Shown in pieces: positions 18,737-55,480 of a stretch of 64,000 nucleotides of DNA. The stretch is from Siphonodentalium dalli (Eukaryota; Mollusca; Scaphopoda; Gadilida; Siphonodentaliidae), in NCBI GenBank assembly GCA_032622095.1, contig CP136064.1, forward strand, positions 256,721,863 through 256,785,862, read 5' to 3'. How positions within the stretch are numbered: position 1 is the first letter of the stretch; the number at the start of each line of letters is the position of its first letter. Made by a program: the position numbers and the translations under genes. Below the pieces are notes generated by a model. That model was given only the letters and a program-made list of their open reading frames with translations. It did not search any database and was not told where the DNA came from.

Positions 18737-18912
18737 CCCTGTGTCAATGCATTATCTTATATATGCAAGTCTCCCACATGGATCCTCGCATGTATAAGAA
18801 AATACATGGGCCTAACAATATTTGCCTTCACCTTGTAAGCCAGTGTATTCACTTATATATATGCGAGGCTCCTTATGGGAGAGTCGCATATATAAGAGAA
18901 TGCACTGGCACA
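18737..18912. repeat. Diverged double-hairpin core
   Basis: Two decayed hairpins (18,737-18,810 and 18,842-18,912) of the CCAATGCATTCTC / CTTATATATGCGAG type, separated by CCTAACAATATTTGCC. Neither the TTAA nor the TGTGACCC shell surrounds them, so this may be a free core or an old element that has lost its shell. Confidence 0.75.
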
Positions 18913-19397
18913 ATCATGCTATTTAAAGGGTTTGATACAGTATCACAACAATCACTTGTATCAAATTTCAAAAAGAAATTCAGGACTGATTTTGAGAAAA
19001 TTCATTTCAAAATACCAGCAAATATTGGCAATACGTGCATCTGGCCATTCAAGGTACTCAATCCGATCAGACCGTCCCCATATCATCAAGATACAACAAC
19101 AACAACATTTCTGCAAAATACCCTTTAGTTATCAGAATCGATTTATTACAACAAAAATAATGCTAACCACTGTCAACTATGGTATCAAAACTATGGTATG
19201 TTAAAAAAAATATGGCCGTATTATCACAAATGTATCACAAATTTGACCGTACTACCACTTGATTTTATATAGAGTTATCCATCTTCATCCGCAATTTTGT
19301 CCTAGATCCTCCGTTTGACAACGTGTTTCTGTGCCCATATTATTACACATCTCGAGAAATAACAAACTTCAAAAATCGATATCTGATCACTCTGAGC

Positions 19398-19490
19398 TTT
19401 GATGGGTGGGTTCCTCGACTCGAATAAAATATTTTTTACCCCCAAAGCCAAAGAAATAGTAATTTTGGAGCGTCTGATCGGATTGAGTAC
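19398..19490 (+). repeat. Dispersed repeat F, copy 1
   Basis: The text GATGGGTGGGTTCC...GACTCGAAT...TTTACCCCC...AAGCCAAA recurs at 29,003-29,092. It overlaps the first ATG and about 30 codons of the open frame of the HtrL/YibB-like exon, which argues that those codons are not protein-coding. Confidence 0.75.
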
Positions 19491-19521
19491 ATTTAAGATC
19501 ATCCAATTCGATTCATTTCAG

Positions 19522-20421
19522 CTAAAGTTCAGTGCATCCAGTAATCTAAAGCATGATGACATCACTTTTGTGACAGCATTCTTCAACCTCGGGAGCTTCC
19601 AGAAAGGACCCAATATTGAGTACGTGTACACACCGGATATGTACTTAAAGTGGATGTCCGGATTCGCCAATATGAAAAATCCTCTCGTTGTGTACACTGA
19701 TGACGGAGTAACAGCATCCATGATGAGGGATATAAGAAGAAAGTTTCAACATATAACCAGGATTATAAAAATATCACGGAAATCGTTGTGGGCATTTGAT
19801 ATTTCTAAAGAAATTAAAGATATATATTCTCAAGAAAACTATCCAAAGTTTTATCCTAACACCGTGAATGAAAACTATTCTTGCTCTATGCATGCCAAGT
19901 ATGAGCTGGTTAACAGAGTTGCGCAAGAAAATATGTTCAAGACGAAGTACATCGGATGGATTGACATGGGATATTTGAGAGATATTGTTATCGAAGGGGA
20001 TGACGTCATGTTTCCGTTAGTACCGCTCGACGCAGACGACACAAAGGTATCCTTTTCCCAGATCGATGAACCGGAAGTAGGTGTGACTAAAGAAGAGATT
20101 ATTTTAACCAATAAATTTTGGGTAGGTGGCGGAATGTTTTATGGGATACCGGAAGTTGTGATGACGTTTACGAAGGACTACATGCGCGCGATAAACGAAC
20201 TTATCAAAAGACGACTAATAAACACTGACCAACAGGTTATATACTCCTTATATGCTGGTTGCCTAGATGTGAAACCGAGGGTGCAAATACACGCGCATAC
20301 TAGCCATAGAGATAATGTCGTCTGGAAATGGTTTTATTTGGGATATCTACTCCGAGAACCGTGGTTGATATCTACAAGGACTAACTTGTCACTCGCATAT
20401 TACATGCATAGCCAAATGTGA
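19522..20421 (+). CDS. HtrL/YibB-domain protein, terminal exon
   Basis: The open frame runs from 19,399 (340 codons) to TGA at 20,419-20,421. A good 3' splice site (ATTCATTTCAG) ends at 19,521 in phase 0 and the first 30 codons lie in a dispersed repeat, so I start the exon at 19,522, leaving 299 residues. The protein resembles the HtrL/YibB family: ITFVTAFFNLGSFQ near the start, VVYTDDG (about residues 97-103 of the long frame), YIGWIDMGYLRD (about 184-195), and FWVGGGMFYG. Bacterial members lie in LPS-core gene clusters; the family fold is glycosyltransferase-like, but the reaction is unknown. The D-D and WID motifs would suit a nucleotide-sugar site (inference). Upstream exons, perhaps with a membrane anchor, were not found. 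No clear poly(A) signal closes the gene. Confidence 0.72.
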   Translation, partial: LKFSASSNLKHDDITFVTAFFNLGSFQKGPNIEYVYTPDMYLKWMSGFANMKNPLVVYTDDGVTASMMRDIRRKFQHITRIIKISRKSLWAFDISKEIKDIYSQENYPKFYPNTVNENYSCSMHAKYELVNRVAQENMFKTKYIGWIDMGYLRDIVIEGDDVMFPLVPLDADDTKVSFSQIDEPEVGVTKEEIILTNKFWVGGGMFYGIPEVVMTFTKDYMRAINELIKRRLINTDQQVIYSLYAGCLDVKPRVQIHAHTSHRDNVVWKWFYLGYLLREPWLISTRTNLSLAYYMHSQM

Positions 20422-20468
20422 TATGGATAATAATCTGGACTCACCCCATTATTTTTGCGCTAACACTG

Positions 20469-20539
20469 CGCCAATGCATTCTCTTATATATGCGAGTCTT
20501 CTAAAGGAGGCATCGCATATATAAGAGATTATATTGGCC
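20469..20539. repeat. Single hairpin module
   Basis: One palindrome with CCAATGCATTCTCTTATATA and a variant loop (TCTTCTAAAGGAGGCA). No partner hairpin or shell is adjacent. It lies about 50 bp upstream of shell-B copy 1. Confidence 0.8.
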
Positions 20540-20588
20540 TAATGCATTGACAAATATGATATAGATAGTAATCTGGACACACCCCATA

Positions 20589-20792
20589 TGTGACCCGCCA
20601 TATCAAATCCAGTCGTAAGTCGGGATTTTTTTTACCCTGTGCCAATGCCAATGCATTATTAAAAATTGTTAGGCCAATGCATTCTCTTATATATGCGAGG
20701 CGACCTATGGTCGACTCGCATATATAAGAGAATGCATTGGCACAGGGTAAAATAATCCCGACTTACGACTGGATTTGATATGGCGGGTCACA
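20589..20792. mobile_element. MITE shell B, copy 1 (one hairpin mostly deleted)
   Basis: Terminal inverted repeats of about 45 bp begin TGTGACCCGCCATATC, run through CAGTCGTAAGTCGGGA, and end in GATATGGCGGGTCACA. Inside is the core, but hairpin 1 is reduced to CCAATGCCAATGCATTATT; hairpin 2 (20,673-20,744) is intact. Non-coding. Confidence 0.88.
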
Positions 20793-21062
20793 AATAATGA
20801 AACTGGGGGTCCACCTTCACGTTTCATTAGGATTAACATGATTGTCATTTCATCCGCATAATGGCTTACTAAAAACAATATGATACCTTGTCTGCCTTCA
20901 AATTATCAAGGTATATTCAGCTAGTATATCTATAACTCTGTATGACTATATCGGATACTTTTTACGTGAAATTTTGCGTTAGAGTAATGAATAAATTTAT
21001 TTAAACAAATGTACATGAGGTCCCATTCAACCATTGAGTAGTTTTGTCTATATGTTTATTTT

Positions 21063-21092
21063 CTGGAATGGCCTGGAATGGCCTGGAATGGC
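21063..21092. repeat. (CTGGAATGGC)3
   Basis: Three exact 10-bp units. Confidence 0.9.
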
Positions 21093-21175
21093 CGCAATAA
21101 AATAAGCTGTGCCTGAGTTTTGTGTCCATTTCAGTAATGAATAAATTTATGTAAACAAATGCATATGAGGTCCCC

Positions 21176-21236
21176 AGAGGGTGAATTTAGTGATGCTAAG
21201 TAGCACAGCGGTCTATAATCACCAAATTCACCCTCT
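21176..21236. repeat. 61-bp mini-foldback
   Basis: AGAGGGTGAATTTAGTGAT and ATCACCAAATTCACCCTCT form 19-bp arms with one mismatch around a 23-bp loop. It interrupts the AATGAATAAA direct-repeat array. Confidence 0.75.
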
Positions 21237-21334
21237 GTTGACCTATATCATTTTCAGTACAACCGTATTTAGATTTTAATGAATAAATTTATTTATACCA
21301 TAAGTGTCCATGTTAGTGTGTGTTGTAATGTTGT

Positions 21335-21450
21335 AAATTTCAGCTGTACACCCTATTATGGGTATAAATTTCAGCTGTACACCCTATTATGTGTATAAAT
21401 TTCAGCTGTACACCCTATTATGGGTATAAATTTCTACTATGGGTGTAAAT
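21335..21450 (+). repeat. 31-bp tandem repeat, three units plus partial
   Basis: Units AAATTTCAGCTGTACACCC + TATTATGGGTAT start at 21,335, 21,366 and 21,397, with one G/T change, followed by a degraded partial unit. Confidence 0.9.
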
Positions 21451-22852: not shown

Positions 22853-22886
22853 ATACCAAGACTTTGTCAGGCGACGTACTGAGTTA

Positions 22887-23286
22887 TTAACCCTTTACCC
22901 AACATAAGGGCCCTGTGCCAATGCATTCTCTTATATATGCGAGTCGACCATAGGTCGCCTCGCATATATAAGAGAATGCATTGGCTTAACACATTAAAAA
23001 TTATAAAATTGTTAAAGAATGTAAGAAAAAATGGTAAAAAGTGTTAAAAAAAGATTTTGTTTAGGCCAATGCATTCTCTTATATATGCGAGGCGACCTAT
23101 GGTCGACTCGCATATATAAGAGAATGCATTGGCACAGGGCATAACTGTAACTATCACAATGTGGTCAAGGAGCCGGTTCCAATGATATCCATATTTGTAT
23201 GGTTCTATTGAGACAGACCGAAGATATTTTAGGCTGTTGAAGCTTTATTTGGCCGGTTTTGGCCGGTTTGTTGGGTAAAGGGTTAA
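22887..23286 (+). mobile_element. TTAA MITE shell A, copy 1
   Basis: A 400-bp element bounded by TTAA at both ends, with TIR CCCTTTACCCAACA / TGTTGGGTAAAGGG. The TTAA target and CCC start match the piggyBac superfamily (inference; no transposase). Inside are hairpin 1 (22,916-22,986), an AT-rich spacer, hairpin 2 (23,063-23,136), and an asymmetric tail of about 150 bp with GGCTGTTGAAGCTTTATTTG and a doubled GGCCGGTTTT. Confidence 0.92.
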
Positions 23287-23519: not shown

Positions 23520-23775
23520 AGAGGACGAGGTTGATAACTTACGCATAAAGTAGGACGAGTGTGAGATACCTTTTATCACATGATCAAATAAACCCGAAGC
23601 AACGCGAAATATTCATCGAAAACAACAATCATAAACTACAGCGATCGCAAGTTATTTGAAGAACGCCGTGACGTCATCGCACGCGCTGTTATTAAACGTG
23701 TCTATTACCGATAATTATGAAACTGCTTTTATGGCCAAATTATGTGATAAAATATAATAAAACACTTATTGAATT

Positions 23776-23866
23776 GTTTCGAGGTTGACATGAGGATTTG
23801 TCAATCCTTGGAAGTTAATATTCACTTCGGCCTGCGGTTGATAAATCCTCATGTCAACCTCGAAAC
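23776..23866. repeat. Hairpin with 24-bp arms
   Basis: GTTTCGAGGTTGACATGAGG and its complement CCTCATGTCAACCTCGAAAC enclose about 45 bp. With the hairpin at 23,476 it may delimit one decayed element, but that is a guess. Confidence 0.7.
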
Positions 23867-24543
23867 CATGCAATAAATGTATAATAACAAATTTTCACCA
23901 CCCTGCTTGACACGAGCAGTGTATGTCTGTTATTTCAGCACTGCGTGTAAACTTCGTTTAAAAAGTATTTATTCCATGTAATGTCATTATATATATACAG
24001 TTACAACTATAAGAAGAATCAAGATTTCATAGATCGGACCCGACAGCAAGTGTATGTGCTTATATTATTCGTTTCCGTGGATGATTTCGCCCATCCCACC
24101 ACGCGGCAGCAGCCAATATTAAAGGATGAGTCTGTGTTTGTGTTTTGTGATATCAGGTGTTGATAACGAGCACGTGGATACAAGAGATTACATTTTATCT
24201 ACCATTTCATACGAAATTCCCTGATACAATTGGCGATAACGAATTGGCGATAAAAACATTCGTATCGTTACTGCAGTTGCGATCCAAGGTGCTCGTGACG
24301 TCGTTGACTGGTTCAAAATCATGAATGAACTGACATCACATAAATCGCGTGAAAAATCAAAACGACATTCCAACGTATATTCTTGCGTACTATAAACAAA
24401 TATTTCCAAGGTTTTAACATTATTTGATTGCCTACCATCATGGGTATTATGGTATAACATATCACAGAGTAACTAATATGTTTTTGTTCAGTATTTATTA
24501 TAAGTGTAAGAGATTGTGTCCATTGAATACAATTTCCGTTAAC

Positions 24544-24650: not shown

Positions 24651-24722
24651 AGTTTTTGGCATTTAAGAAACTCCTAAAATGTAATTTGTGCGGTGGATTC
24701 TGTCACACCAATGGTAGATAAA

Positions 24723-24889
24723 TGTGTTATATACACAATGTGTTTGTAACGATTAATGTATCGCGACTCGGCTAGTTTCGTGGCCATATAGCGACTCGGC
24801 GACCAAGGTCGCCTCGTCGCTATATGGCCACGAAAACTAGCCTCGTCGCGATACATGAATCGATACAAATACATTGTGTATATAACACA
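24723..24889. mobile_element. Foldback MITE, 167 bp
   Basis: An almost perfect palindrome centred at 24,805 (GGCGACCAAGGTCGCC). Arms contain TGTGTTATATACACAATG, TATCGCGAC, and GTGGCCATATAGCGAC. Its loop-proximal GCGACC resembles that of the main hairpin family (GTCGACC/GGTCGCC), but the arms are otherwise unrelated. Confidence 0.85.
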
Positions 24890-25249
24890 TATATATGCAT
24901 GCGTGGTGGGAAAGGCTGACGATAGGATACTGCAGTTTTCTTGTATAAACTTATAGTGTAGTCGTTGCGGTGATTTTGGAAGGTGAACCTAGAAATAATT
25001 GTTATAAAGCCAGTTTTTGTGTCATCTTGACCGGGAATGTTTGGACAATGTAACATAATGATGTCTACTAAACTTAAATTCGCTATCATTCGATAAGTAA
25101 GCTGGCAGTTTGAAAAATAAGGCTCAAATTTTGCATATTTCTAGGAAAACTAGGCATCAGCCTAGTACAGTGGAACTGTGGTGTCGGAATTATGCTGAAG
25201 TCACATTCTCACGACCAACAGTTAGAATTTAATATATAGAGGTCATGGG

Positions 25250-25472
25250 TAGTTCGAACTATGTAACAGGGTGCTTTTATGTTAAGTATTGGTATGATAA
25301 GCTAATGTGCACCCTGATAAGTTGATCTGATGGTGCTGTTCCTGTCATTCTCAAATTAATCATTAATGTGAGAATGACAGGAACAGCACCATCAGATCAA
25401 CTTATCAGGGTGCACATTAGCTTATCATACCATTACTTAACATAAAAGCACCGTGTTACCTAGTTCGAACTA
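25250..25472. mobile_element. Foldback element, 223 bp, with arms of about 103 bp
   Basis: Arms run from TAGTTCGAACTA at both ends to GACAGG...AATCATTAATG in the centre, with few mismatches (GTAACAGGGTGC against its partner GCACCGTGTTAC). The ends are themselves 12-bp palindromes. No ORF. Confidence 0.88.
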
Positions 25473-27104
25473 TCCTGCCTGCCAAGATAGATGACTATTT
25501 TGACAGGTTGTGTGCCAACTCTGACACAGGATAGTTGGAACTGGTATGTCTAAAATTTATTATAATATGGGGACTTATGGTTGGTCATTTAAGTCCCAAC
25601 CCTTTTTCGTATATATGCTCGGTCGGGATTTTAGCCCGGCACTTCTAGTCTACTGCTCTCTCAAAAAGTATCAACTATATATATCGGTGCTGTTCAACTG
25701 GCTCGGTGTTTTTCCGAAAGTTAACTATCTCAGATTATTTCTTGAAAATAAAAATACCAAACACAACAACTCGACTACTTTGTGAAGACAACACGCGGTC
25801 ATACGTCCATATACAACGGGAAGAAGTTCTACTCTATCACAACAACAACATATCCAAAATCCGCTAAAATCCGCTTTGGGGAATTTTTTTTTACAGTCAT
25901 TTGAATACAGGGCGTTTCGTCATTATGCCACACAATTTCGTATTGCAGATAAATACAAACAGTTTATGTTAGCTCAAAAGTCACTTATGCGTGGCAAGTT
26001 CGCATGGATAATTGTCATATGATGATACGATAGCATGAGCCACCACAGTGTAAGCCATATGTTCCCCCACCAATAAGAGCGTTGAGTAAAACGCCAATGC
26101 ATGCGTGCGCACCATATGGGTGGCACTGTGTAGGAACTGTTAATTCGGAAGTCGTTCTATCGCCGGTTTGTGATGGATCTTGACTGATTTGTGACGGTTC
26201 TTTATGATCGAAATTATACATTTTCCCGAGATTTGACAGTTAAAACGTTGAGCTATCTAGCTGATAATTCGATTATTTGTCCATTCCCCTCATAATCCGT
26301 GGCCCCATTGGGCAAATTTCATTGTGCGAGTCATAACAACGACGAAAACCGGGAATTTTGATATCTGTTTGGGTTCTCTCCTGATCGAATCGGTTCTCTC
26401 CCCATTTCATCGGATCTATACGGATAATACTATGGCTAATATTTGGCAGGATGCATGGTTCAAACTGACCATGTATAGGTGCTAGAATTTGTTATTTCTT
26501 GATCGCACTTGTTCTGCTGTCCACGACAATCTGACCGGCAATCACTCAGGGTTTGCTCTAACTTTTAAGCGTCTATATAGACAGTGAAGCCATGCCCACT
26601 CAGAGTCATGTTATGAGATACCTGATTACAACCGATCACGCAATTAATTAAATAATTTTGTCATACTAGTAAAGGCTATCTTTTGTAATAATAAATTAAT
26701 TAAAATTGGATGAAGTGAAATCAAAAAGTATTTGATCACCAGTCATGCTTTGACTTACTAGTATAGTCGCCCCGAACATGCGAGATCACACTCGGTGCAA
26801 CTGGTCTTGGCCATGAGTAGTCACGCTTCCTCGGGGATATTCCGGAATGTAAATACCGGTACTAATATTACACCTTTAAAAGTGACTCAATCAACCATGG
26901 AAGTTTTACAAAGTCATGTGACCATTGGTCAAAAGAGTACAAGTGAAGTCGGGCCCATATAACGATGGCACAATAAGAAGACGACCCGACGCGAAGTCGA
27001 CCTGAAAGAAGTCGGCCCCGATGATTAGATAGGAATTGAATATTATTCATATTATTTTTAATGAGCGCGGTGGACAATTACACTTTAAACGAACATGTTA
27101 TTAA
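25473..27104. other. No gene recognised
   Basis: AT-rich DNA with short ORFs only (longest near 25,546-25,785, 79 codons, no known domain). 26,124-26,175 is an inverted match to 28,952-29,003. Confidence 0.5.
26124..26175 (+). repeat. Repeat G, inverted partner at 28,952-29,003
   Basis: GTAGGAACTGTTAATTCGGA and CTATCGCCGGTTTGTGATGG match the reverse complement of the later segment with a few changes. The partner abuts dispersed repeat F. Confidence 0.65.
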
Positions 27105-29870: not shown

Positions 29871-31545
29871 TAGAAATCAAGTCTCACCTCCTGTTCTTTC
29901 CAATAATCGTCGAGTCGATTTTTGAAATGGTTTAATGTATCGGCGTTGACTACCTCTTCTGCTAGTTGGTTCCAGGGCTCCACAACTCTCTGACTAAAAG
30001 TATGTTTTCTTGTGTCTCTTGTTGCCCCTTCTAGAAACAGCTTGAAATTGTGGCCTCTGGTTTTGGATTCGGGGTTCCGTGTCAGTATATTTGCTACTTC
30101 CGGGTCGTATGTATTGAATATTTGTAGAATTCTATCATATCTCCTCTATGTCGTCTGTAGTGCAGGGTGGGAATCTTTAGTTTTTTCAAATCTGTCTTCG
30201 TATGGTAAATGTTTTAAAGTAGGAACTAGTTTTGTTGCTCTGCGTTGGACTTTCTCAAGTTGGGTGATGTGTTTGATCAAATATGGTTTCCATGCCGGCT
30301 GAGAGTACTCTAATCTTGGTCGAACCAACCCTTTATACAACTTTGTCATCATGCCTTCATCTAGATGTGTAAACGATCTTCTAATCATCCCCATCACTGA
30401 TTGAGCGCTCTGTGCTTTTTTCATTTATATGTTGTTCGAAATTCAAGTTTTTATCTGTGGTGATGCCTATATCTTTCTCGCTGTCGACCTGCTTCAGTGT
30501 AAAGGTTGTTCCATCAAGTCCTTTCAATGTATAATTTGGGGTATATCCTTCTTTTCCAATGTTCATCATTACACATTTCTCAGGATGAAAACGAAGAAGC
30601 CATTTATCAGACCATTTTTGTAGTTCATTTAGATCTTGTTGCAGAATTTCCACGTCATCTGGTGTTGTTATCTCTCTGAATATGTTGGTATCGTCAGCGT
30701 ACATCATGACATCAGACTTTGTTGATCTTGGTAAGTCATTTATATAGATGACAAATAGGAGGGGTCCAAGTACGCTTCCTGTGGAATCCCACTGATGACA
30801 TCATAGAATTTCGATTTCTCCCCATTAACAACTGCTCTTTTTCTTCTTCATCTGAGAAAATATTTAATCCACCCTAATATGTTACCTTTGATCCGTATGC
30901 TTCTGTTTTGCCTATCAGTCGACGATGTGGCACAGAGTCAAACGCCTTCATGAAGTCCATGTATATTACATGTGTTGGTTGATTATTTTCTATTGACTTT
31001 GTCCATCCTTCAAGTGTATTTAGTAACTGTAATGTCGTTGAGCGTCCTTTTATGTATCCGAATTGATTTTTGCTGAATAATTTATTATTCCTCATATGGT
31101 CCATGATCCTGTCTCTTATAACTGATTCTAATACTTTGCAGACTACGCTGGTGAGGCTGAGTGTTAGCTTTAGTGGCTCCTCCTTTTTTATATATTGCTG
31201 ATATGTTTGCATCCTTCCATTCGTTTGGTAATTGTCCCAGTCTGAGGCTGTTATTATATATTATTGCTAATGGCTTGCTTAATTCGTGAGATAATTCATT
31301 CAATATTCTCGGATGCATCCCACCTGGTCCTAGAGATTTGTTTCGATTTAGCTTCGATAGTCTGATCTGAATTCCTTCTGCTAACACTTCCAGATCTTCT
31401 ATTTCATGTTCTATTGTCAGGTCTTCAAGTTGTGGAATCTTTCCTTGTGGCTCGTTTGTGAAGACGCTAGAAAAGAATTCTGCTAGTACATCCGCTTTCT
31501 CTGCATCTGTTGTTGTTATGCTAAATGTTTTAAGGATCTCTGCAG
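29871..31545 (-). pseudogene. LINE reverse transcriptase half, minus strand
   Basis: CR1/Jockey-like ORF2 from the end of the linker to the C-terminus. In order: TDAEKADVLAEFFSSVF; HPRILNELSHELSKPLAII; GQLPNEWKDANISAIYKKG; a frameshift; KLTLSLTSVVCKVLESVI; motif A VIYMDFMKAFDSVPH; a one-base loss inside the GIPQ(G)SVLGPLL box near 30,780; catalytic MMYADDTNIF; thumb LEYSQPAWKP and LEKVQRRATKL; tail to a stop near 29,871 (EQEVRLDF). The 3' UTR extends to about 29,700. Upstream, at about 31,545, the sequence switches abruptly to the antisense of the plus-strand LINE half. Inactive through at least three frameshifts. Confidence 0.85.
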
Positions 31546-33443
31546 AAATATTGACGTAGAAGACCCACAAGAAATAAAAATGATACAGTTGGTGAGGTTG
31601 GGAAAGAAGACAGATGACCAAGACAGACCACGTCCCTTGAGAATAACATTTGAAGATGAATCTGCAAATGATAAAATACTGAGAACTGGGCCAAAGTTGA
31701 AAGAAAAGGGATTAAAAATCACCTTTGCAAATGATTTATCAAAGAAGGACAGAGAAGACAGGAAGAAATTAATAGATGAAGCAAAGAAGAAGACGAAAGA
31801 ATCAGATGGGGAGTGGTTATATCAGGTTCGGGGCCCTCCATGGACTCTGAAGAAAGTAAATAAAAAAGAAGCGAGGTAGGCCTCAAAAAGAGGAAATTTG
31901 TAAATACGTTAGATGCACCAAATGCACCAAAACATTTGCACAAGGTGGAGGGACTAGACATTTTATCCCTAAATGCAGATAGTCTGTCAAACAAAATGAA
32001 TGAGCTCAGACACTTAGTTGAAGAAGAGAAGTATGACATAATCTGCATCACAGAGGTTAACCCTTTACCCAACAGAAGGGCCCTGTGCCAATGCATTCTC
32101 TTATATATGCGAGTCGACCATAGGTCGCCTCGCATATATAAGAGAATGCATTGGCTTAACACATTAAAAATTATAAAATTGTTAAAGAATGTAAGAAAAA
32201 ATGGTAAAAAGTGTTAAAAAAAAGATTTTGTTTAGGCCAATGCATTCTCTTATATATGCGATGCGACCTATGGTCGACTCGCATATATAAGAGAATGCAT
32301 TGGCACAGGGCATAACTGTAACTATCACAATGTGGTCAAGGAGCCGGTTCCAATTATATCCATATTTGTATGGTTCTATTGAGACAGACCGAATATATTT
32401 TAGGCTGTTGAAGCTTTATTTGGCCGGTTTTGGCCGGTTTGTTGGGAAAAGGGTTAAGTCGAAGAAAAGTAAGGACATCCTACCTGCGTTATATACCTTA
32501 GACGGTTACATCATGATCCACAAGAACTTAACCAGTAACAAAGGAAGAGGAGTCTTGATGTATGTGAAGGCGAATATCTCTGCAGAAGAGCAAATTATAA
32601 ACGAAGAACTGAGTGAAGCTGTACGGATAACAGTTAAACTAGAAAAAGGGACAAAATGCTGATATGAGTTGTATATAGCAGTCCTAACACAAGTACAGAA
32701 GAAAATGATGACAAAATAAACAAAACAATAAAGGAAATATGCAGAAATCGGGATTATTCACACATTCTCCTCGTGGGAGATTTTAACCATCCATCCATTG
32801 ATTGGAAAGTTCAGACAGCTAAAAACAAGAAAGGAGAAGATTTCATCAATACTGTAAATGAAAGCTTCTTAACGCAACACATCCTAGAGCCAACAAGAGG
32901 AAGATTAGGATAGAGGGCAAGTACACTAGATCTGGTACTGACAAATGAAGAAAATATGATTACCAACATAAAGATTTGCAGCCCACTAGGAAAGAGTGAC
33001 CACTCCATGATTGACTTCAACTTCAAGCAAGTGATACACACAAATAAATAACTTAAAGAAAAAAGTCTACTCGGCTGGAAACTAAACACAGATGAAGAAA
33101 GATCTTGACATTGTCTGGAACAATTTTTTAGAGGACTGCAAAGTTGAAAGAAATATACCAGAGAGAACAAAATCAACAAAATCTAAAAACAGAATGCCAC
33201 TTGACAAAAAAAACCAGGGAGCTTGTGAAGAAGAAACATAGAATGTGTACAAGATACATGGAAAACAGAACAGAAGAGAATTATAAAAAGTACACTCGCC
33301 TGAGAAATCAAGTAAGGACAGCAACAAGACAGAAACAGATAGTACACGTGAAAGACATTGCCGACAAGGCGAAAACTAACCCCAAAAAAATCTGGGACTA
33401 CATAGCGAGACGCTCAAAAACAAGAAATGGTGTGGGAGTATAA
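31546..33443 (+). pseudogene. LINE ORF1 end + endonuclease + linker half, plus strand
   Basis: 31,546-31,879 encodes the end of a gag-like ORF1 (RPRPLRITFEDES, KKDREDRKKLIDEAKKK). From 31,936 an APE-type endonuclease begins (ILSLNADSLSNKMNELR, YDIICITEV), is interrupted by a TTAA MITE at 32,057-32,457, then resumes (KDILPALYTLDGY, GRGVLMYVKANI). After a frameshift near 32,660 it shows the endonuclease boxes LLVGDFNHPSIDWK and LDLVLTNEE...GKSDHSMIDF. 33,144-33,443 is the basic linker (KTNPKKIWDYIARRSKTR). It stops just where the minus-strand half begins in the protein order, so the two halves look like one inverted copy. It would have nicked target DNA when intact. Confidence 0.8.
32057..32457 (+). 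mobile_element. TTAA MITE shell A, copy 2, inside the LINE endonuclease
   Basis: Same architecture as the 22.9-kb copy (TTAACCCTTTACCC ends, two hairpins at 32,085-32,155 and 32,237-32,310). The right TIR carries one change (GGGAAAAGGGTTAA). Removal of the element and one TTAA joins GAG-GTT-AAG in frame (Glu-Val-Lys), matching the endonuclease frame on both sides. This proves an insertion with TTAA duplication. Confidence 0.95.
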
Positions 33444-35249: not shown

Positions 35250-35654
35250 CCTCATTAGCAATACCATATAAACACGTTGGTTATACCACAGTTGTTGAGC
35301 AATAATGTCGGTTCTACTATATTTATATATACGTGCTGCATTTTACTTACTCTTCAACTTGTTCTCCCAAAAATCAGCACGTTATCCTCATAATAACTTA
35401 GTATAAGTTCATTGTGAATGAATGAGTTTATTGCTAGCCACGAATTGACATGGAACATGCAAACATATCTACATATATACAAAAGCACCAAAATATATCG
35501 ATGCTCATTAGGGAACATCAGCAAAAATACACATGTGTCCAATATACATTCAAGATATATACACTGGTAACTCAACACCGCTACACACAATTATGAGCAG
35601 ATGTTGATCTTGCACCGTCCATATACTTCACACCAACATCGAAATTCAAAGGAA

Positions 35655-36156
35655 ATTGTGAGCGGACAATAACGGGAATATGTGACCCGCCATATCAAAT
35701 CCAGTCGTAAGTCGGGATTTTTTTACCCTGTGCCAATGCATTCTCTTATATATGCGAGTCGACCATAGGTCGCCTCGCATATATAAGAGAATGCATTGGC
35801 CTAACAATTTTTTTAAATAAATGTTTCTGACAATTTTTAGGACATAAAATAAAAAACACCCATTACCCTGCAGGGAGCCCCACACATATATAGAAGCATA
35901 TAGAAGAGTGCCGTCTGCTCATGTTTGTCTGGGGCTCTGAGTGGGTGAAATTATAAAATTGTTAAAGAATACAAGAACAAATTATTAAAATTGTAAAAAA
36001 TTGTTAGGCCAATGCATTCTCTTATATATGCGAGCCGACCTATGGTCGACTCGCATATATAAGAGAATGCATTGGCACAGGGTAAAACAATCCCGACTTC
36101 CGACTGGATTTGATATGGCGGGTCACAATAATTGTGAGCGGACAATAACGGGAATA
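35655..36156. mobile_element. MITE shell B, copy 2, between 26-bp direct repeats
   Basis: The element at 35,681-36,127 has TGTGACCCGCCATATC ends and hairpins at 35,733-35,800 and 36,008-36,078. The spacer includes CCTGCAGGGAGCCCC and TTGTCTGGGGCTCTG. The flanks 35,655-35,680 and 36,131-36,156 are identical over 26 bp (starting ATTGTGAGCGG, ending ACGGGAATA). That is far longer than normal DNA-transposon target duplications. Confidence 0.9.
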
Positions 36157-36849: not shown

Positions 36850-37436
36850 TAGTTATTCCATAGGAAATGCTCAGATAATATATGTGACCCGCCATATCAA
36901 ATCCAGTCGTAAGTCGGGATTTTGTTACCCTGTGCCAATGCATTCTCTTATATATGCGAGTCGACCATAGCTCGCCTCGCATATATAAGAGAATACATTG
37001 GCCTATATAGAAGCATATAGAAGAGTGTCGTCTGCTCATGTTTGTCTGGGGCTCTGTATTGGGTGAAATTATAAAATTGTTAAAGAATACAAGAAAAAAT
37101 TATTAAAATTGTAAAAAATTGTTAGGCCAATGCATTCTCTTATATATGGTCGACTCGCATATATAAGAGAATGCATTGGCACAGGGTAAAACAAATCCCG
37201 ACTTACGACTGGATTTGATATGGCGGGTCACATATAAGTTCAACAAACGACCGTTTGTTGAACTATCTAAACATTTCCCTCAATAAATAAATATGGCTCC
37301 TTTTGCACTAGTGTTTATCTGTCGTCTGCTTTTACCACATTAACATACCTCCAAAATTAATGACTAATCGACAATTCCAATGTATGCTGTTTATCTGAGT
37401 GGGAGAATCTATTTAGTTAGTATAAGAAATGGTTAA
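36850..37436 (-). mobile_element. Family C element carrying a nested shell-B MITE (copy 3)
   Basis: The shell-B element spans 36,883-37,232 (hairpins 36,934-37,003 and a shortened one at 37,125-37,183 lacking its loop). Its flanks GGAAATGCTCAGATAATA and TAAGTTCAACAAACGACCG together rebuild the centre of family C (compare AAATGTTCAGATAATAAG at 45,972). The join implies a TA duplication with element ends TATGTGACCC / GGGTCACATA. The C element ends GGTTAA at about 37,436. Confidence 0.8.
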
Positions 37437-37590: not shown

Positions 37591-37989
37591 TTAACCCTTT
37601 ACCCAACAGAAGGGCCCTGTGCCAATGCATTCTCTTATATATGCGAGTCGATCATAGGTCGCCTCGCATATATAAGAGAATGCATTGGCTTAACACATTA
37701 AAAATTATAAAATTGTTAAAGAATGTAAGAAAAAATGGTAAAAAGTGTTAAAAAAAGATTTCTTTAGGCCAATGCATTCTCTTATATATGCGAGGCGACC
37801 TATGGTCGACTCGCATATATAAGAGAATGCATTGGCACAGGGCATAACTATAACCATCACAATGTGGTCAATGAGCCGGTTCCAATGATATCCATATTTG
37901 TATGGTTTTATTGAGACAGACCCAAGATATTTTAGGCTGTTGAAGCTTTATTTGGCCGGTTTTGGCCGGTTTGTTGGGTAAAGGGTTAA
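37591..37989 (+). mobile_element. TTAA MITE shell A, copy 3
   Basis: 399 bp, TTAA at both ends, hairpins at 37,619-37,690 and 37,768-37,841, tail as in copy 1. Very similar to the 22.9- and 32.1-kb copies. Confidence 0.93.
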
Positions 37990-39353: not shown

Positions 39354-39813
39354 TGTGACCCGCCATAACAAATCCAGTCGTAAGTCGGGATTTTTTTTAC
39401 CCTGTGCCAATGCATTCTCTTATATATGCGAGTCGACCATAGGTCGCCTCGCATATATAAGAGAATGCATTGGCCTAACAATTGTTTACAATTTTAATAA
39501 TTTGTTCTTGTATTCTTTAACAATTTTATAATTTCACCCATACAGAGCCCCAGACAAACATGAGCAGACGACACTCTTCTATATGCTTCTATATAAGTGT
39601 GGGGCTCCCTGCAGGGTAATGGATGTTTTTTATTTTATGTCCTAAAAATTGTCAGAAACATTTATTTTTAAAAAATGATAAAAAATTGTTAGGCCAATGC
39701 ATTCTCTTATATATGCGAGGCGACCTATGGTCGACTCGCATATATAAGAGAATGCATTGGCACAGGGTAAACAAAATCCCGACTTACGACTGGATTTGAT
39801 ATGGCGGGTCACA
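39354..39813 (-). mobile_element. MITE shell B, copy 4
   Basis: Ends TGTGACCCGCCATAAC and GATATGGCGGGTCACA; hairpins 39,404-39,473 and 39,692-39,764. The spacer is the reverse complement of the one in copy 2 (GGGGCTCCCTGCAGGG), so this copy is inserted in the opposite orientation. Confidence 0.92.
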
Positions 39814-40087
39814 TGTATTGTCTAGACAGACATTAAAGATATCATATTAATATTCAAAAATGATATCTTCACTGTAGCTTTCTTCCGGTATAAGCAGCTG
39901 AACTGTAGCTTGCCGAGTGATGTTATGACGTCATCACTTGAAAGCGTTTTGCTACCTATCCGCTGATCAGTTTCCGTGAATTGTTTACTTTGTTGTGCTA
40001 TTATAATTGAAAATGCTACATAATGTATCAACTTTAACCATTAAAAATAATAATTATCGACATGGTTGAAGCATATAATAAATAGAA

Positions 40088-40216
40088 CACATATGGTGTT
40101 TTGAGTGAATCGCATATTATTTCATTCGTGACTATAGTAGTGGAAATATAAATTTTGATATTTTCACTGCTAGTCACGAATGAAATAATTATGGTATTCA
40201 CTCAAAAACCATATGT
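40088..40216. mobile_element. Foldback element, 129 bp
   Basis: Arms with ACATATGG, TTTTGAGTGAAT and TTATTTCATTCGTGACTA, and their complements, with several mismatches. Centre near TATAAATTTTGATA. Confidence 0.8.
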
Positions 40217-40701
40217 ATCCTCTATATATCACACCTCCTTAATTCTTACAATACAGACTCGATATCGGATCAGACTGTCACGCAATTAGATGCCGCCAGC
40301 CAAGATCTCACAGCGTCGCCACCTCGCGCGGTTTCGATTTAACGCTGTTCAAACACGTATTTTACAACATTCCTGTAAATTGGAGAAACTAAATGTACAA
40401 TACTAATTTTTGCGCATACAACATCAGTTGGTTACGGTTATGTGAGAAACATGCTAACACAAGCCTTGGCGCATGTATTTTGCCGATAAGTACCAGCTCG
40501 ATGTGGAACTAGATTTTGTCCAGGTGTCAAATAGTGCCGTTAGCGACAAAGCGGCTTATACACACGTAAACAGTTTAATTAATTTATTTTAATTAAGATT
40601 AGTTAATATAATCTGTTCATCTCAGATCTATCGGTGACATTTAAATTGTAATATCACATTCAACGAAAGACAGCTGCTTTACATATCAGAAACTGGAGCT
40701 T

Positions 40702-41101
40702 TTAACCCTTTACCCAACAAACCGGCCAAAACCGGCCAAATAAAGCTTCAACAGCCTAAAATATCTTCGGTCTGTCTCAATAGAACCATACACATATGGA
40801 TATCATTGGAACCGGCTCCTTGACCACATTGTGATAGTTACAGTTATGCCCTGTGCCAATGCATTCTCTTATATATGCGAGTCGACCATAGGTCGCCTCG
40901 CATATATAAGAGAATGCATTGGCCTAAAAAAAATCTTTTTTTAACACTTTTTACCATTTTTTCTTACATTCTTTAACAATTTTATATTTTTTAATGTGTT
41001 AAGCCAATGCATTCTCTTATATATGCGAGGCGACCTATGGTCGACTCGCATATATAAGAGAATGCATTGGCACAGGGCCCTTCTGTTGGGTAAAGGGTTA
41101 A
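40702..41101 (-). mobile_element. TTAA MITE shell A, copy 4 (reverse)
   Basis: Starts TTAACCCTTTACCCAACA on the asymmetric-tail side (AAACCGGCCAAA twice) and ends GGGCCCTTCTGTTGGG. Hairpins 40,853-40,922 and 41,004-41,075. Confidence 0.93.
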
Positions 41102-44269: not shown

Positions 44270-45784
44270 ATGGAAGCGTATCTTCTGCCACTTGTGCTAT
44301 TTTGTCATTTCCACGCCACATTTGGCGCGAACGTACTATTAATGACGCCCCCACTCTACAGTCATTGTATGAAATTTGGACACATTGCTGACTCTCTAAC
44401 AGAACTCGGTCACAATGTATATGCCTACATCCCGACGAACTGGGACTCGTCGAAATGTTTGGACAATAAGAACATCAAGATTATAACATACCGATATAAT
44501 CATGAAGTTGTCGAAAACATATTAACTGATTTTAGTAAGAGTGGGACAGGAGTTGGACCACGGAAAATGTTGACAACATTGAGAGCATCAAGTAAAGAGC
44601 TGTGTTCTGGATTACTGGGCGATGGTGAAAGTTTAATTAAAGTTCGGGAATCTAACATTGACTTCGTTATAGTGGATGCTTTTCCTGGATCGCGTTGCTT
44701 TTTCCTGGTTCCTTATAGACTAGGAATCAGATACGCATCATTGTCGATGACTTTCAACTGGTTCGAATCTGGAAAACCTTTTCTGCCAAGCGTTGAACGT
44801 TTGTTCATGTCTACATACCCACCGCACATGACGTTCTTCCAACGCTTCAATAACGCCATCGGGACTCTTCTGAAGCCGTTCGTCTTTCCATATATTATAA
44901 TGAACACAGAAGAATTTGAATTCGCACCGGAACTCTCATATCTTCAGTACATATCCCTGATAAGGGATTCCCAACTATTTATTCAAGACGATGACGTCAT
45001 TCTGTCAGGGCCGACAACTGTGATGCCAAATACTGTTCATACCGGTGGATTCTCCCCGCGCGATGGCGGAAATCTGTCTGCAGAATTCAAACATTTCATC
45101 GATTCTTCGTCTAATGGTGTTGTTGTCGTGTCGTTCGGCAGTATGCTTGACCTTGCTGGCGACACGAAATTTGACATTTTCAAGCATGTCTTCGGCAAAC
45201 TCAAGGTCAAGGTCATATGGAGGACGAATGCTCCCATTAACTCACCAAACATTCTCGCTACATCGTGGATGCCACAAAACGCTATTCTTGCGCACCCAAA
45301 CGTCAAATTGCTGATATTCCACTGCGGGAGGAATAGTTTCTATGAAGCTCTGTACCACGCCATCCCCATGTTATGTCTGCCGATCGTTGCCGACGAGCTT
45401 TCAGTTGCAATTAACGTGGAGTATCGCGAGATTGGGCGTTGGATCCAAACAGACCATCTCACAAACGAAACTTTCGAGGCCACAATGAAAGACGTTCTAA
45501 GTAGACCTTCTTTCAAAAGGAATATACAGAGGTTTTCTCGGATATATAGAGACTTGCATAAAGAATCTGCTGGACGAATCGCCGCTCATGCATTAGATCA
45601 CGTGATTTCTCACGGATCCGCTCATTTGCGACCACATTCACTTGATATGTCGGCGTCAGCGGCCCTTCAGATAGATATTTTATTATCAATGTTCGTCATT
45701 GTGTTCCTGCTAGCAATTGTATCGTGCTATCTTTGCTGTTACTGTTGCAAAAGATTGATGGGACACAAATATAAAAACGACTAG
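44270..45784 (+). CDS. UDP-glucuronosyltransferase-like membrane glycosyltransferase
   Basis: An intronless 504-codon ORF, the usual UGT length. These ER enzymes move a sugar from a UDP-sugar onto small lipophilic acceptors, mainly for detoxification. Residues 1-20 form a signal peptide (YLLPLVLFCHF). His32 and Asp136 (VIVDAF) are placed like the catalytic His-Asp pair. The UDP-binding signature runs from W333-MPQ through H351, N355-S and E359 to D375. Residues 470-488 are a transmembrane helix, and the tail KYKND fits the KxKxx ER-retrieval pattern, so the body faces the lumen. Unusual: HCGRNS replaces the usual HGGxNS, and D375 is followed by Glu where most UGTs have Gln that contacts the sugar. 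That may change sugar choice or weaken activity (inference). No neighbouring UGT copy is present. The ATG is the first in frame before the signal peptide. Confidence 0.93.
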   Translation: MEAYLLPLVLFCHFHATFGANVLLMTPPLYSHCMKFGHIADSLTELGHNVYAYIPTNWDSSKCLDNKNIKIITYRYNHEVVENILTDFSKSGTGVGPRKMLTTLRASSKELCSGLLGDGESLIKVRESNIDFVIVDAFPGSRCFFLVPYRLGIRYASLSMTFNWFESGKPFLPSVERLFMSTYPPHMTFFQRFNNAIGTLLKPFVFPYIIMNTEEFEFAPELSYLQYISLIRDSQLFIQDDDVILSGPTTVMPNTVHTGGFSPRDGGNLSAEFKHFIDSSSNGVVVVSFGSMLDLAGDTKFDIFKHVFGKLKVKVIWRTNAPINSPNILATSWMPQNAILAHPNVKLLIFHCGRNSFYEALYHAIPMLCLPIVADELSVAINVEYREIGRWIQTDHLTNETFEATMKDVLSRPSFKRNIQRFSRIYRDLHKESAGRIAAHALDHVISHGSAHLRPHSLDMSASAALQIDILLSMFVIVFLLAIVSCYLCCYCCKRLMGHKYKND

Positions 45785-50517: not shown

Positions 50518-50739
50518 ATTTTCCCCAATCGGTAAATGTAATGCCAAACATGGGCAATGCCATTGTCATTAAGAACATGTTTAGCTGTGATACCACATAC
50601 CGATGTAGATCACATATAGATGTGTACATATATGCTTTGAATGCATGATAGAGTCACGACACAGTTCAACTTACTTTGGTCAACCTGATCACTGGGACCT
50701 GTAACTAATATAGTTAGTATGTCATATAATTATGTGTTA

Positions 50740-50906
50740 TATATAAGGATTAACTGTCATGTGGACTGTTTTTATGGAGATGTAACCGTGAGGTAAGTGG
50801 ACATAACTTGTGTAAAACCCGAAGGGTTTTACATACAAGTTATGACCACTTACCTCCCGGTTACATCTCCATAAATATAGTCCACATGACAGTTAATCCT
50901 TATATT
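50740..50906. mobile_element. Foldback element, 167 bp
   Basis: Arms AAGGATTAACTGTCATGTGG ... GGAGATGTAACC ... GTAAGTGG and their complements meet at AAAACCCGAAGGGTTTT. Few mismatches. Confidence 0.88.
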
Positions 50907-51225
50907 TATATACATTTAGCGAAAAAGCCACTTTTGTAAATGTATTTAAATCGAAAAGTGTATTGTGACAAAAACAGCTCAAAATACCCATAGCACCCTT
51001 GGCAAAAGTTAATAGGAACAATTTCTCTTAATATTGAAACCCGATGATGTATTAAGTCAATCCTGCGCGAGTCCAAATGCGCCCAAAACATTACGCGTTC
51101 GTCTTTCCAAACCCAATGGCGTATCGATGGTGTTATGAGCTTGGTGTTATGAGCCGTTGCGCATTCACCGAGAAATAACTGCAACTAGCCACGTGGGCGC
51201 TCTTTAAAACACTTCTCCAAATATG

Positions 51226-52049: not shown

Positions 52050-52192
52050 TACCAGCAAATAAAATAATTGAAATTATGCCCCTTAATTGGTATTTGTGTA
52101 GGGAAACTAGAGTCACCATAAAAAATTAGTTTATGCTGACTCGAGTTTCCCTACACAAATGTCAATAAAGGGGCATAATTTCAATTATTTTA
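52050..52192. mobile_element. Foldback element, 143 bp, plus duplicated right end
   Basis: Arms TAAAATAATTGAAATTATGC and TTTGTGTAGGGAAACT with complements. The right end (TTTCAATTATTTTATGAACG) is repeated directly at about 52,207. Confidence 0.82.
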
Positions 52193-52558
52193 TGAACGAA
52201 TTATTATTTCAATTATTTTATGAACGAAAAAAGAAATGCATAGATTGTTAATTCCGCGACCATTTGTGTGCGATTGTTCGCCAATCATATACGTTGGTCG
52301 CCAACTTGGGGAGGGTTGGTGTTACGCCGAGTTTTTGAATAACTGACGAGTTATGTCGTACATGTAGCTCACGATTTCTGAAATAACAATCGCTGAATTC
52401 TGTGGGAGCTCACGAGTTCTGTAGTAAATTCAACGAGTTATTTAGTAATATGAGGTCATGATTTCTGTACTTTTTTTTTCAAAAGACGCGTTTGGGCTTT
52501 ATACATTATTATATAGTAAATTCAATGTTTATTTGTGTAAGATTGTACGTGGCGGATG

Positions 52559-52958
52559 TTAACCCTTTACCCAACAAACCGGCCAAACCCGGCCAAATAA
52601 AGCTTCAACAGCCTAAAATATCTTCGGTCTGTCTCAATAAAACCATACAAATATGGATATCATTGGAACCGGCTCCTTGACCACATTGTGATAGTTACAG
52701 TTATACCCTGTGCCAATGCATTCTCTTATATATGCGAGTCGACCATAGGTCGCCTCGCATATATAAGAGAATGCATTGGCCTAAAAAAAATCTTTTTTTA
52801 ACACTTTTTACCATTTTTTCTTACATTCTTTAACAATATTATAATTTTTAATGTGTTAAGCCAATGCATTCTCTTATATATGCGAGGCGACCTATGGTCG
52901 ACTCGCATATATAAGAGAATGCATTGGCACAGGGCCCTTCTGTTGGGTAAAGGGTTAA
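52559..52958 (-). mobile_element. TTAA MITE shell A, copy 5 (reverse)
   Basis: Bounded by TTAA; hairpins 52,712-52,780 and 52,861-52,930; same orientation as copy 4. Confidence 0.93.
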
Positions 52959-53422
52959 TGTTGTTGTATATATAGCTCAACTTGATGGTGGTCATTCGGC
53001 ACCCCGCCGTTTCTCGACTGATCGGGTCGTTGAAAACAATTGATATACAGGGATAAATTGTACCGATTGTTGTCACGGGATAAGTGCCGTTTACCTCAGA
53101 CGTCTTAAGTAGGCACTAATAAATGAATCATATAAAGAGCGTTCCTTGTCAGCTTAGAAAATATAAATACACAGGAGAACACGCGTGTGGCAGTTGGTTT
53201 GGTGATACGACACGAGTGTTCGCGTGGACGGGTAGAACGAGAAGCCGAGTCTCGAGTTGTATCCTTCCGTCATGGCACAAGTGACGCGTCGACAAACCTT
53301 ATTAACTCACGCTTCGTACTGTTTGGTAACACAACACCTGTCCTTGAATCTGAGAATTAAAAACAAACAGACTAACAATGTGTATTTAGGTAGATACACG
53401 ACGTGTTTTGGCATGTGTGCTG

Positions 53423-53960
53423 AGATAAGATAAGATAAGATGATTTATTGCAATAGACCAATGGAGGCAGTTGCAAATAACAGTTAGTACATGAAAAGTT
53501 ACACATTAAAATAAAATACATGTAATAGGCATATGTACGATATATAATCCTTAGTATTATAAATTAATACTTTCAACGTGTATTTCCCCATATTGCCATT
53601 CTGTCTTTTTAGAAAGAATAACCGGATCATGTTACACAAGGAATTGATTATTTGTTTGTCCTTGTTTTTCATTATGAAGATGAACTTATCATCATCACTC
53701 ATGTTTATGAAATCTATGCTGTGCAATATTAAACAAGTCTATTCTAAAATCAGCGTACGCACTGCAATCCATAATAAAATGTTTTTATGTCACGGTTCAT
53801 CTCACATGTGACAAATTCTGTCTTTTAATGGCATTTTCGGTTGCGTTGTGTCGACCCTTTTCTATAGCTAAAATATGATTGCTAACACGTAGTCGAGTGA
53901 ACATCTCTCTTGCCTCTGACGATCGAACGTGCCTGAGGTACGGTTCTATATCATAATTGT
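53423..53960 (-). pseudogene. LINE 3'-end relic (zinc-knuckle-type tail)
   Basis: On the minus strand, from about 53,960: YLRHVRSSEAREMFTRLRVS, HILAIEKGRHN, then DLFNIAQHRF and DDDKFIFIMKNKDKQIINS. These are the typical end of certain LINE ORF2 proteins after the RT, where a Cys/His cluster is followed by a helical 'FxxLMSxxD' box. It closes with (TATCT)n (53,423-53,440). Several frameshifts and stops. No RT core is present. Confidence 0.65.
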
Positions 53961-54084
53961 GTGATGATGCTTATTTGTATAGGTGTGTCATAATAAGTAA
54001 TATACTGCTGTATTGTATTCGCTTTCATCGATAAATACATACTGGTTTTGACATCACACCTAATTGCTGTTATATATCGATGAA

Positions 54085-55480
54085 ATGAAAAAAATTAGAA
54101 TTTTATTTTTTTTAATAATAATGATTGCAGCAGCCTCTTATTGGATCACAGAACCGAAGACAGAGACCACTCCCCCGCAAAGATTACGAAGTAAGTGTAT
54201 CATCCTATGGATCATATTGTAACACTCTTGGTGCCTACATATTATGCACCAAGCTGTAAGTGCTATGGCAGCCTATACATTCTGAAACATTGGTTTATTG
54301 AAAACCACATTTCAAGTAACAAGGACCAGCCAATCCTGTTATGAATATTAGTTATCTCACACGTCTGACAAATTCGCTTTTTTTTTGCAGAATCGATGGA
54401 CAAACTGTTCCAAAATCATTTAAAATAAGTATCTTTTTCCCGTATAACACCCCACCCCAATAATACATAACCGTGAATTGATTACAGGTTTGACCTCCTG
54501 GTCAAGTGGTCATTGATATGATACGTTATATTTTAGTCATTTTTGCGGTGTTCGGATAATCTGAACATATCTAGGAAAAGGCATGTTCGTGCATGTATCA
54601 AACATTTAACATCATATATATATTGCGAACTATTTTAATACTGGTTGCATTAGTTGTTCCAAAATCGAGTTCAATAGAGATGTCTATTCGTGTAGTTTTG
54701 CAAACACCAGCGCAGCCATTATTGATTTTCTTTTAACCCTTTACCCAACAGAACGGCCCTGTGCCAATGCATTCTCTTATATATGCGAGTCGACCATATG
54801 TCGCCTCGCATATATAAGAGAATGCATTGGCTTAACACATATTAAAACTGATAAAATTGTCAAAGAATGTAGAAAAAGATTATAAAAAATGTTAAAAAAT
54901 GTAAGAAAAAATTATAAAATTGTTAAAGAATGTAAGAAAAAAATGGCAATTTTTTTTTTTAGGCCAATGCATTCTCTTATATATGCGAGGCGACATATGG
55001 TCGACTCGCATATATAAGAGAATGCATTGGTACTGGGCATAACTGTAACCATCACAATATGGTCAATGAACCGGTTCCAATGATATCCATATTTGTATGG
55101 TGTTATTGAGACAGACCGAATATATTTTAGGCTGTTGAAGCTTTATTTGGGCGTTTTTGGCCGTTTTGTTGGGTAAAGGGTTAAATAATTATGTTCTTGA
55201 ATGATTCATACAGGCAATGGCTTTTCACCCAAATCGCTCGGATTAGTCAAACACCACAAAAATGACAACTTAATTAAACATAACGGTACTTTTTTCGTAA
55301 CGGCATCAGTTTGCCCTACCATCATTATAGCTAGTATGCAAGACCACAGCATCATAACAGACTAGCAGGATCACTTGATCAGGGTGTACTAGTTATTTTC
55401 CTTTGTTTCAGAGTCTCAATTACGATCAGGGACACAACAAGCCGTACGAGATTTACGCACAGAAGCAAGCTGAAGAACTG
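54085..55480 (+). CDS. Candidate small-exon gene start, type II membrane protein
   Basis: Exon 1, 54,085-54,190: ATG, then MKKIRILFFLIIMIAAASYW (signal anchor), a Thr/Pro-rich stem, and a perfect donor GTAAGT in phase 1. Exon 2 would start at 54,391 after TTTTTTTTTGCAG and reads KSMDKLFQNHLK; its end (AAAATAAGTATC) lacks the G of a normal GTAAGT donor. Exon 3, 55,412-55,480, lies between CTTTGTTTCAG and GTAAGA and reads SLNYDQGHNKPYEIYAQKQ. Phases fit if exon 2 ends at the AAA. The layout suits a Golgi enzyme, but no catalytic domain follows before the LINE at 56.4 kb, so identity is unknown. A shell-A MITE lies in intron 2. The gene may be dead. Confidence 0.38.
54733..55184 (+). mobile_element. 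TTAA MITE shell A, copy 6 (long spacer)
   Basis: 452 bp, TTAA-bounded, hairpins 54,761-54,832 and 54,962-55,033. The spacer is about 50 bp longer through duplication of the ATTATAAAATTGTTAAAGAA unit. The tail is more diverged (TTGGGCGTTTTTGG). Confidence 0.92.

Follow-up and report, generated by a model that had tools for sequence, protein, structure and literature searches.

One double-hairpin module in two dissimilar MITE shells within a 64-kb window of the Siphonodentalium dalli genome

How does one non-coding hairpin come to lie, almost unchanged, inside two kinds of miniature inverted-repeat transposable element (MITE) whose outer shells show no detectable similarity? The question is raised by a stretch of 64 kb of the scaphopod Siphonodentalium dalli (contig CP136064.1, positions 256,721,863 to 256,785,862; hereafter the window, which is the scope of all our analyses), where a 69-bp hairpin occurs at 22 loci between 18,743 and 55,031: 12 in a TTAA-flanked shell (A), seven in a TGTGACCCGCC shell (B) and three outside both, the 19 within shells being distributed over ten composites. 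We consider it probable that two MITE families carry the same double-hairpin module, each having been founded once and then copied by the transposase of its shell.

The loci were found by a profile search of the window (nhmmer --max) with a profile built from 20 of the 22, including three relics described below, whose matches are thus partly by construction; no further hairpin in the window rose above the profile inclusion threshold. Independently of the profile, the half-site GCCAATGCATTCTC, allowing up to two mismatches, matched 42 times in the window against 0.40 expected from shuffles. Both counts bear out the initial annotation, made from the letters alone, of about 22 hairpins of about 70 bp between 18.7 and 55.1 kb. 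The loop that it had described, GTCGACCATAGGTCGCC, is in fact no loop: the 69-bp consensus is a single fold with 32 pairs, consisting of a perfect outer stem of 27 bp, one T-C mismatch, an apical stem of 5 bp and a 3-nt ATA loop. When the 75-nt piece 22911-22985 was folded as DNA, its predicted energy was -36.1 kcal/mol, compared with a mean of -6.9 for 200 shuffles (z -14.3); this predicted strong hairpin represents a physical potential only. An Rfam search at the gathering threshold gave no match, and exact scans of virus and prokaryote contig collections gave no extra copies.

Within the module two such hairpins (hp1 and hp2) lie in opposite orientation round an AT-rich spacer, as is seen in all eight composites with two full hairpins and in the stand-alone core iso1. 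The general pairing of hairpins that had been claimed thus holds for eight of the ten composites; B1 is without hp1, and in B3 hp2 is cut to 55 bp. The six A and four B shells lie where they had been placed:

22887..23286, plus strand: composite A1, a TTAA-flanked MITE with a left shell of 24 bp, a core of 229 bp and a right shell of 147 bp
22911..23139, plus strand: the core as in A1, CCCTGTG-hp1-AT-rich spacer-hp2-CACAGGG, 229 bp
32057..32457, plus strand: composite A2, from the alignment of A copies
37591..37989, plus strand: composite A3, from the alignment of A copies
40702..41101, minus strand: composite A4, from the alignment of A copies
52559..52958, minus strand: composite A5, from the alignment of A copies
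54733..55184, plus strand: composite A6, the most diverged A copy, with a longer tandem-repeat spacer
20589..20792, plus strand: composite B1, in a TGTGACCCGCC shell, with hp1 and most of the spacer deleted and hp2 intact
35681..36127, plus strand: composite B2, flanked on both sides by a perfect 27-bp direct repeat
36883..37232, plus strand: composite B3, with a shortened spacer and hp2 truncated by 14 bp
39354..39813, minus strand: composite B4, an inverted repeat with 142-nt arms

All six A copies (399-452 bp) have TTAA at both ends and a 14-bp terminal repeat, CCCTTTACCCAACA, which is exact at both ends in five of them and has one mismatch in A2. Shell A has the CC[C/T]T end motif and the terminal inverted repeat of 12-19 bp by which piggyBac/TTAA MITEs are defined in the portion of PMC2872659 drawn on here, and its TTAA and CCCT ends suggest that it was mobilised by a piggyBac-type transposase. 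The core lies off-centre, between shell segments of 24 bp and 146-147 bp, and A1 contains an inner inverted repeat of 80 nt (the core) and a separate outer one of 26 nt (the shell); in A the core is plainly an insert.

The B copies (204-460 bp) have a TGTGACCCGCC shell repeat of 45-46 bp on each side, and we take their family to be a foldback, or long-terminal-repeat palindromic, MITE. None of the four is flanked by TTAA; their left/right flanks (ATA/AATA, ATA/ATAA, TATA/TATA and ATT/TGT) are AT-rich, show no target duplication of constant length and assign B to no superfamily. In B4 the two 142-nt arms, 96% complementary and separated by 176 nt, account for 284 of the 460 bp and run unbroken from shell to hairpin to spacer. 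As no break separates shell from core in this inverted repeat, B may be where the core originated, and not an element that it invaded.

Two local peculiarities of B copies stand apart from this. The perfect 27-bp direct repeat at B2 (35654-35680 and 36130-36156, the right copy starting 2 bp past the element) has a score reached by 0.6% of random flank pairs, and could be a long-standing tandem pair or a target duplication of unusual length. The B4 spacer (39545-39607) contains an inner inverted motif, GAGCCCCAGAC / GTGTGGGGCTC (11 nt, 91%), which hints at a third nested palindrome.

How often did core and shell come together? The core-shell junction is identical in all six A copies, and likewise in all four B copies, and the flanking DNA, compared over 30 bp on each side, differs from one composite to another. 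The differing flanks point to separate insertions, and the single junction per family implies that each composite arose once and was amplified afterwards, a single origin for each family being the simplest reading of these alignments. The initial annotation had pictured a mobile palindrome that parasitises MITEs, and from this picture one core in two dissimilar shells, with diverged cores outside both, is retained; repeated invasion is not, since each family has only one junction. The other route named there, a module swapped by recombination, is possible. The two shells, described there as unrelated, indeed have no detectable similarity (eight comparisons, lowest p 0.37).

Between the cores the likeness is extreme. 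The hairpins of A1, A4 and A5 do not differ from those of B4 at any of 150 positions, and over all 18 A-B pairs (B1 excluded) the differences number 0-5 in 136-150. It might be supposed that a single composite was ancestral to both A and B and that its outer shell was later exchanged for another, or changed until it could no longer be recognised, for the hairpins are identical, the architecture is one and the spacers have AATTATAAAATTGTTAAAGAAT in common. This we regard as improbable: hairpin identity of 150/150 beside dissimilar shells argues strongly against gradual divergence; shell A is asymmetric (24 + 147 bp) and shell B has 45-46 bp on each side; and what then remains, an abrupt replacement of the shell, is the same event as a transfer of the core.

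Leaving out B1 (hp1 deleted) and gapped columns from all counts of divergence and variability, and treating the columns of hp1 and hp2 within an element as independent, an assumption that may not hold, we find fewer variable columns in the hairpins than in the shells: 6/150 against 19/171 within A (p 0.021; spacers 19/78), 2/136 against 5/90 in B2-B4 (p 0.12), and 8/286 against 24/261 when A is pooled with B2-B4 (Fisher p 0.0017). Spacers diverge by 17-30% between A and B, a range inflated in part by tandem-like units. The A6 shell differs from that of A1 at 12 of 171 positions. Provided that the A and B cores parted before A6 inserted, hairpins changing at the shell rate should show about ten A1-B4 differences, against none observed (Poisson 3e-5); at the hairpins' own slower rate (A1 versus A6, 4/150) the chance of zero is about 0.02. 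This hints at, and does not prove, an exchange of hairpins between shells or selection that keeps them constant, and a core transferred late would explain it as well; as proof of selection or exchange the conservation of the hairpins is only moderate. The six variable A hairpin columns are each private to one copy and thus carry no tree signal. In A6 both hairpins have the same private variant (CATATG), which fits a copying of one hairpin to the other within the element.

A further possibility is that the hairpin moves without a transposase, an excised stem-loop inserting by local homology as Izsvak et al. (1999) proposed for the Angel elements of zebrafish, a model described in PMC8268682 and PMC12628747. 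The strong fold, the lack of a clear target duplication, the lower variability of the hairpins and the variant common to both A6 hairpins would all accord with this. Set against them are the one junction per family (6/6 and 4/4), which speaks against frequent movement into MITEs, the opposed hp1 and hp2 of all eight two-hairpin composites and iso1, and the A and B hairpin alignment, in which no change is matched across the stem; we therefore give the model little credence. We likewise think it quite unlikely that the double hairpin is a transposase-independent, self-templating hitchhiker that jumps or template-switches from one MITE to another, unrelated one, its copies staying identical through ongoing exchange as the spacers and shells drift; if it were, it would be a parasite of parasites, with no need of matching ends.

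Is the module older than the composites? At least two stand-alone modules had been noted, and there are two, a hairpin pair (18743-18909) and a single hairpin (20470-20538), both diverged and with another apical stem:

18738..18912, plus strand: iso1, a stand-alone core with hairpins at 18743-18811 and 18839-18909 and a spacer of 27 bp
20466..20541, plus strand: iso2, a stand-alone single hairpin (20470-20538)

Their three hairpins match the core profile, of which they are members, with E values of 2e-18 to 1.5e-20 in the better orientation, and they still fold, though more weakly (z -2.6, -9.2 and -6.5). Their apical stem is of the CTCC...GGAG kind or a variant of it; that of A and B is CGACC...GGTCG. 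Cores of A and B therefore seem more like one another than like the relics, which are older, diverged hairpins. Neither an A nor a B shell was detectable at iso1 or iso2 by shell profiles or flank alignments. Covariation was examined in 12 hairpins, the 22 less the truncated hp2 of B3 and nine copies identical to the consensus; the set contained three pairs that change on both sides, a number reached by 40 of 500 shuffles, with a covariation score reached by none of the 500; the two-sided changes all fall in relic rows. Two apical pairs being among those changed on both sides, the tip would have stayed a hairpin while its sequence changed, which with three relic hairpins is suggestive only.

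The surroundings of the relics were compared further. A degenerate old B shell round iso1 (TTTGATA...TCACA right, CGTGAC left), seen by eye only, was dropped: when aligned locally it gave p 0.25-0.52 against shuffles, and pieces taken at random from the window scored no worse in 24-60% of cases. Among 16 flank comparisons, that of the iso1 right flank with the A left shell (AACCCTTTA) gave p 0.0055 and that of the iso2 left flank with the A right shell a borderline p of 0.049; both are treated as chance. Nor did we detect a third shell common to iso1 and iso2, which have no inverted flanks and whose left flanks gave p 0.34 in a free local alignment. In the 20 bp before the core, at the same offset, the two relics agree at 13 positions (p 0.0004, one of nine comparisons), and the older form of the core may extend about 15 bp more to the left. 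Iso2 sits between 46-bp direct repeats (20404-20449 and 20542-20587, identity 40/46), possibly a tandem duplication; the stop codon of an HtrL_YibB-like open reading frame (ORF) lies within the left copy, and B1 begins one base past the right copy.

These relics bear on the possibility that the hairpins are native to the long terminal repeats of B, and that recombination or gap repair brought the B interior into A on one occasion. The unbroken 142-nt arms of B4 and the plainly off-centre core of A favour it, as does the resemblance, by eye, of the B spacer edges (CTAACAAT) to iso1, which is greater than that of the A edges. However, iso1 and iso2 lack the B terminal repeat, whose profile matches only the eight known arms above the inclusion threshold; the iso1 flanks fit that repeat no better than the random window pieces just mentioned; and no B shell sequence was found in A. 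We entertain this route only tentatively.

How, then, might the core have entered? At the B edges TTA precedes CCCTG and TAAAA follows CAGGG in all four copies. At the A edges CCCTG is preceded by GG in all six (more fully AAGGG or AACGG) and CAGGG is followed by CATAA or TATAA. Iso1 has AAAA and ATCA at its edges, AA before the core and no right-hand GGG; the right edge of iso2, where hp2 is absent, could not be judged. The TA duplication of the core that had been proposed is unsupported, since the palindromic arm of B gives TA on both sides anyway and A has GG and iso1 AA in that place. No convincing or constant target duplication of the core was found at the A or B edges or at iso1, and iso1, the only unbroken stand-alone core, has none in its 80-bp flanks. 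In A6 the shell repeat extends as far as ACGGCC at either side; on the left it is joined directly by the core, CGGCC running into CTGTG with CC common to both; on the right A edge GGG can be assigned to shell or core.

A further alternative makes the core a palindromic MITE in its own right, with CCCTGTGCCAATGC ends, which entered the ancestors of A and B by one transposition each, the composites spreading afterwards. The relics lie outside both shells, the sequence common to A, B and the relics starts at CCCTG or a variant, and a MITE inside a MITE is documented in carrot, to judge from the part of PMC3695323 concerned. Yet the target duplication is inconsistent across the A, B and iso1 edges, iso1 is without the right-hand GGG, and no transposase was recognised in the ten ORFs scanned, of 16 of at least 130 amino acids in the window. 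Taken as a complete account this is possible though doubtful; as a route into the shells, the insertion of an older palindromic MITE by nested transposition has about the same likelihood as repair capture.

The reading that we prefer can now be stated in full. Two different non-autonomous MITE families each hold, at one fixed internal place, the same non-coding module, an AT-rich spacer with a near-perfect 69-bp hairpin on either side, the two inverted relative to each other. In A the core may have been captured during double-strand break or gap repair, copied from an existing module, a route to which we lean because the edges share short CC/GGG stretches and no target duplication is clear; B would have been made in the same way, or would be the native home of the module. 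Once founded, each composite would have been copied as a unit by a transposase that recognises its shell. A shared core in dissimilar shells, together with diverged cores outside both, implies that the module predates the composites and that its context has changed at least once. The single-ancestor, B-native and nested-MITE alternatives differ from this account mainly in route, and their probabilities overlap with its own.

Several observations weigh against our account. B4 is continuous through shell and hairpin, as would fit an element that always had its hairpins; there is no empty A or B shell in the window, compared with ten filled ones, to represent the state before the core; and the evidence comes from one 64-kb window. 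It is possible that a duplication of 3 or 4 bp (GGG or GGGC) flanks the core in A. Moreover, in the 20 bp after GGCACA, A1 and B2 match at ten positions, three of them GGG (p 0.02, one of nine comparisons), and the shared core might extend slightly further right than we have drawn it.

The 12 core loci all fall within 36 kb (18738-55184) of the window, a mild clustering (P 0.010 for uniform placement), and A and B copies are interleaved along it. The window has a GC content of 0.36-0.40 and the look of animal, probably invertebrate, nuclear DNA; domain scans of its ORFs recognised the following:

44270-45784 (as scanned): UDP-glucuronosyltransferase ORF, Pfam E 1.6e-56
19396-20421: the HtrL_YibB-like ORF, by ORF domain scan
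1194-2441 and 30381-30800, minus strand: two ORFs with a reverse-transcriptase domain, by ORF domain scan

Other repeats are present. Six stretches of 135-229 bp (25247-25475, 50738-50908, 24718-24894, 52059-52193, 40078-40229 and 23744-23898) are 76-95% identical to their own reverse complements, from which fold-back MITEs look common in this genome; palindromic stretches being common in the window, the finding of composites is the less surprising. A near-perfect, very large palindrome spans 6829-15023, where 8501-12691 is 98.4% identical to its own reverse complement and 6829-8499 is 99.2% identical to 13354-15023 in inverted orientation, 662 bp on one side having no partner; it is either a genuine large palindrome or an assembly fold-back. 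There is also an inverted pair of about 1.3 kb (57851-59149 and 61396-62674, identity 89.7%) and a tandem repeat (16780-17460) of 16 copies of a 42-bp unit with 98% matches and at least two frames open.

The origin of MITE interiors is an open question, described as controversial in an Anopheles paper (PMC3212995). A young module that is exact in two dissimilar shells, with relics outside them, offers a case for separating capture, nested transposition and shell swapping; it suggests that pieces of DNA can pass between unrelated mobile elements and then be copied with each. If the hairpins truly stay identical while their surroundings drift, they would be exchanged between elements or needed for amplification.

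The closest precedent appears to be the CMITEs of Acropora corals (Wang et al. 2010, PMC2872659). As the excerpted parts of that study describe them, families with different terminal repeats share a 75-bp interior which is more conserved between families than the termini; they have TTAA sites and CCCTTT-type ends; the origin of the shared interior is called a mystery; and one new element, CMITE-IN, was formed through insertion of a CMITE. Our composites are alike in that the interior is more conserved than the ends (0/150 hairpin differences between A1, A4 or A5 and B4), and shell A has TTAA sites and ends similar to those in these descriptions. They differ in that the CMITEs are all described there as TTAA/piggyBac-type, which shell B is not, and in having two 69-bp hairpins in place of the 75-bp block; the 60-bp CMITE consensus as given in that source found no meaningful match in the window (best 12 bp, E 0.36).

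Set beside other piggyBac/TTAA MITEs, shell A shares the TTAA, CCCT motif and terminal repeat, and is distinguished by its foreign, off-centre double-hairpin core. B4, like foldback MITEs, is mostly one inverted repeat, and differs in that each arm has a second, complete hairpin. ATon-I of Aedes aegypti (PMC3422177), compared by its partial description only, is likewise short and non-autonomous (112 bp), with a putative subterminal stem-loop at both ends; it is one family, and its relative ATon-II is without stem-loops. MER6, a mariner-derived MITE which, according to the excerpt of PMC6887750 used, carries the V domain of a short interspersed element (SINE), as does a MER6 variant, also has a conserved module of other origin as passenger; the module there is from a SINE, and here it is palindromic and in two families with different ends. 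The DcSto Stowaway MITEs of carrot are shown, in the part of PMC3695323 cited above, nested in an unrelated MITE with TA or TTA target duplications marked; our core is without a convincing target duplication and its composites have been amplified. A literature search, with many journals outside its reach, found no report of exactly this module in two shells. What sets the present case apart is that the shared module occurs in two types of shell that differ in their ends and in target behaviour, the module itself being a double hairpin.

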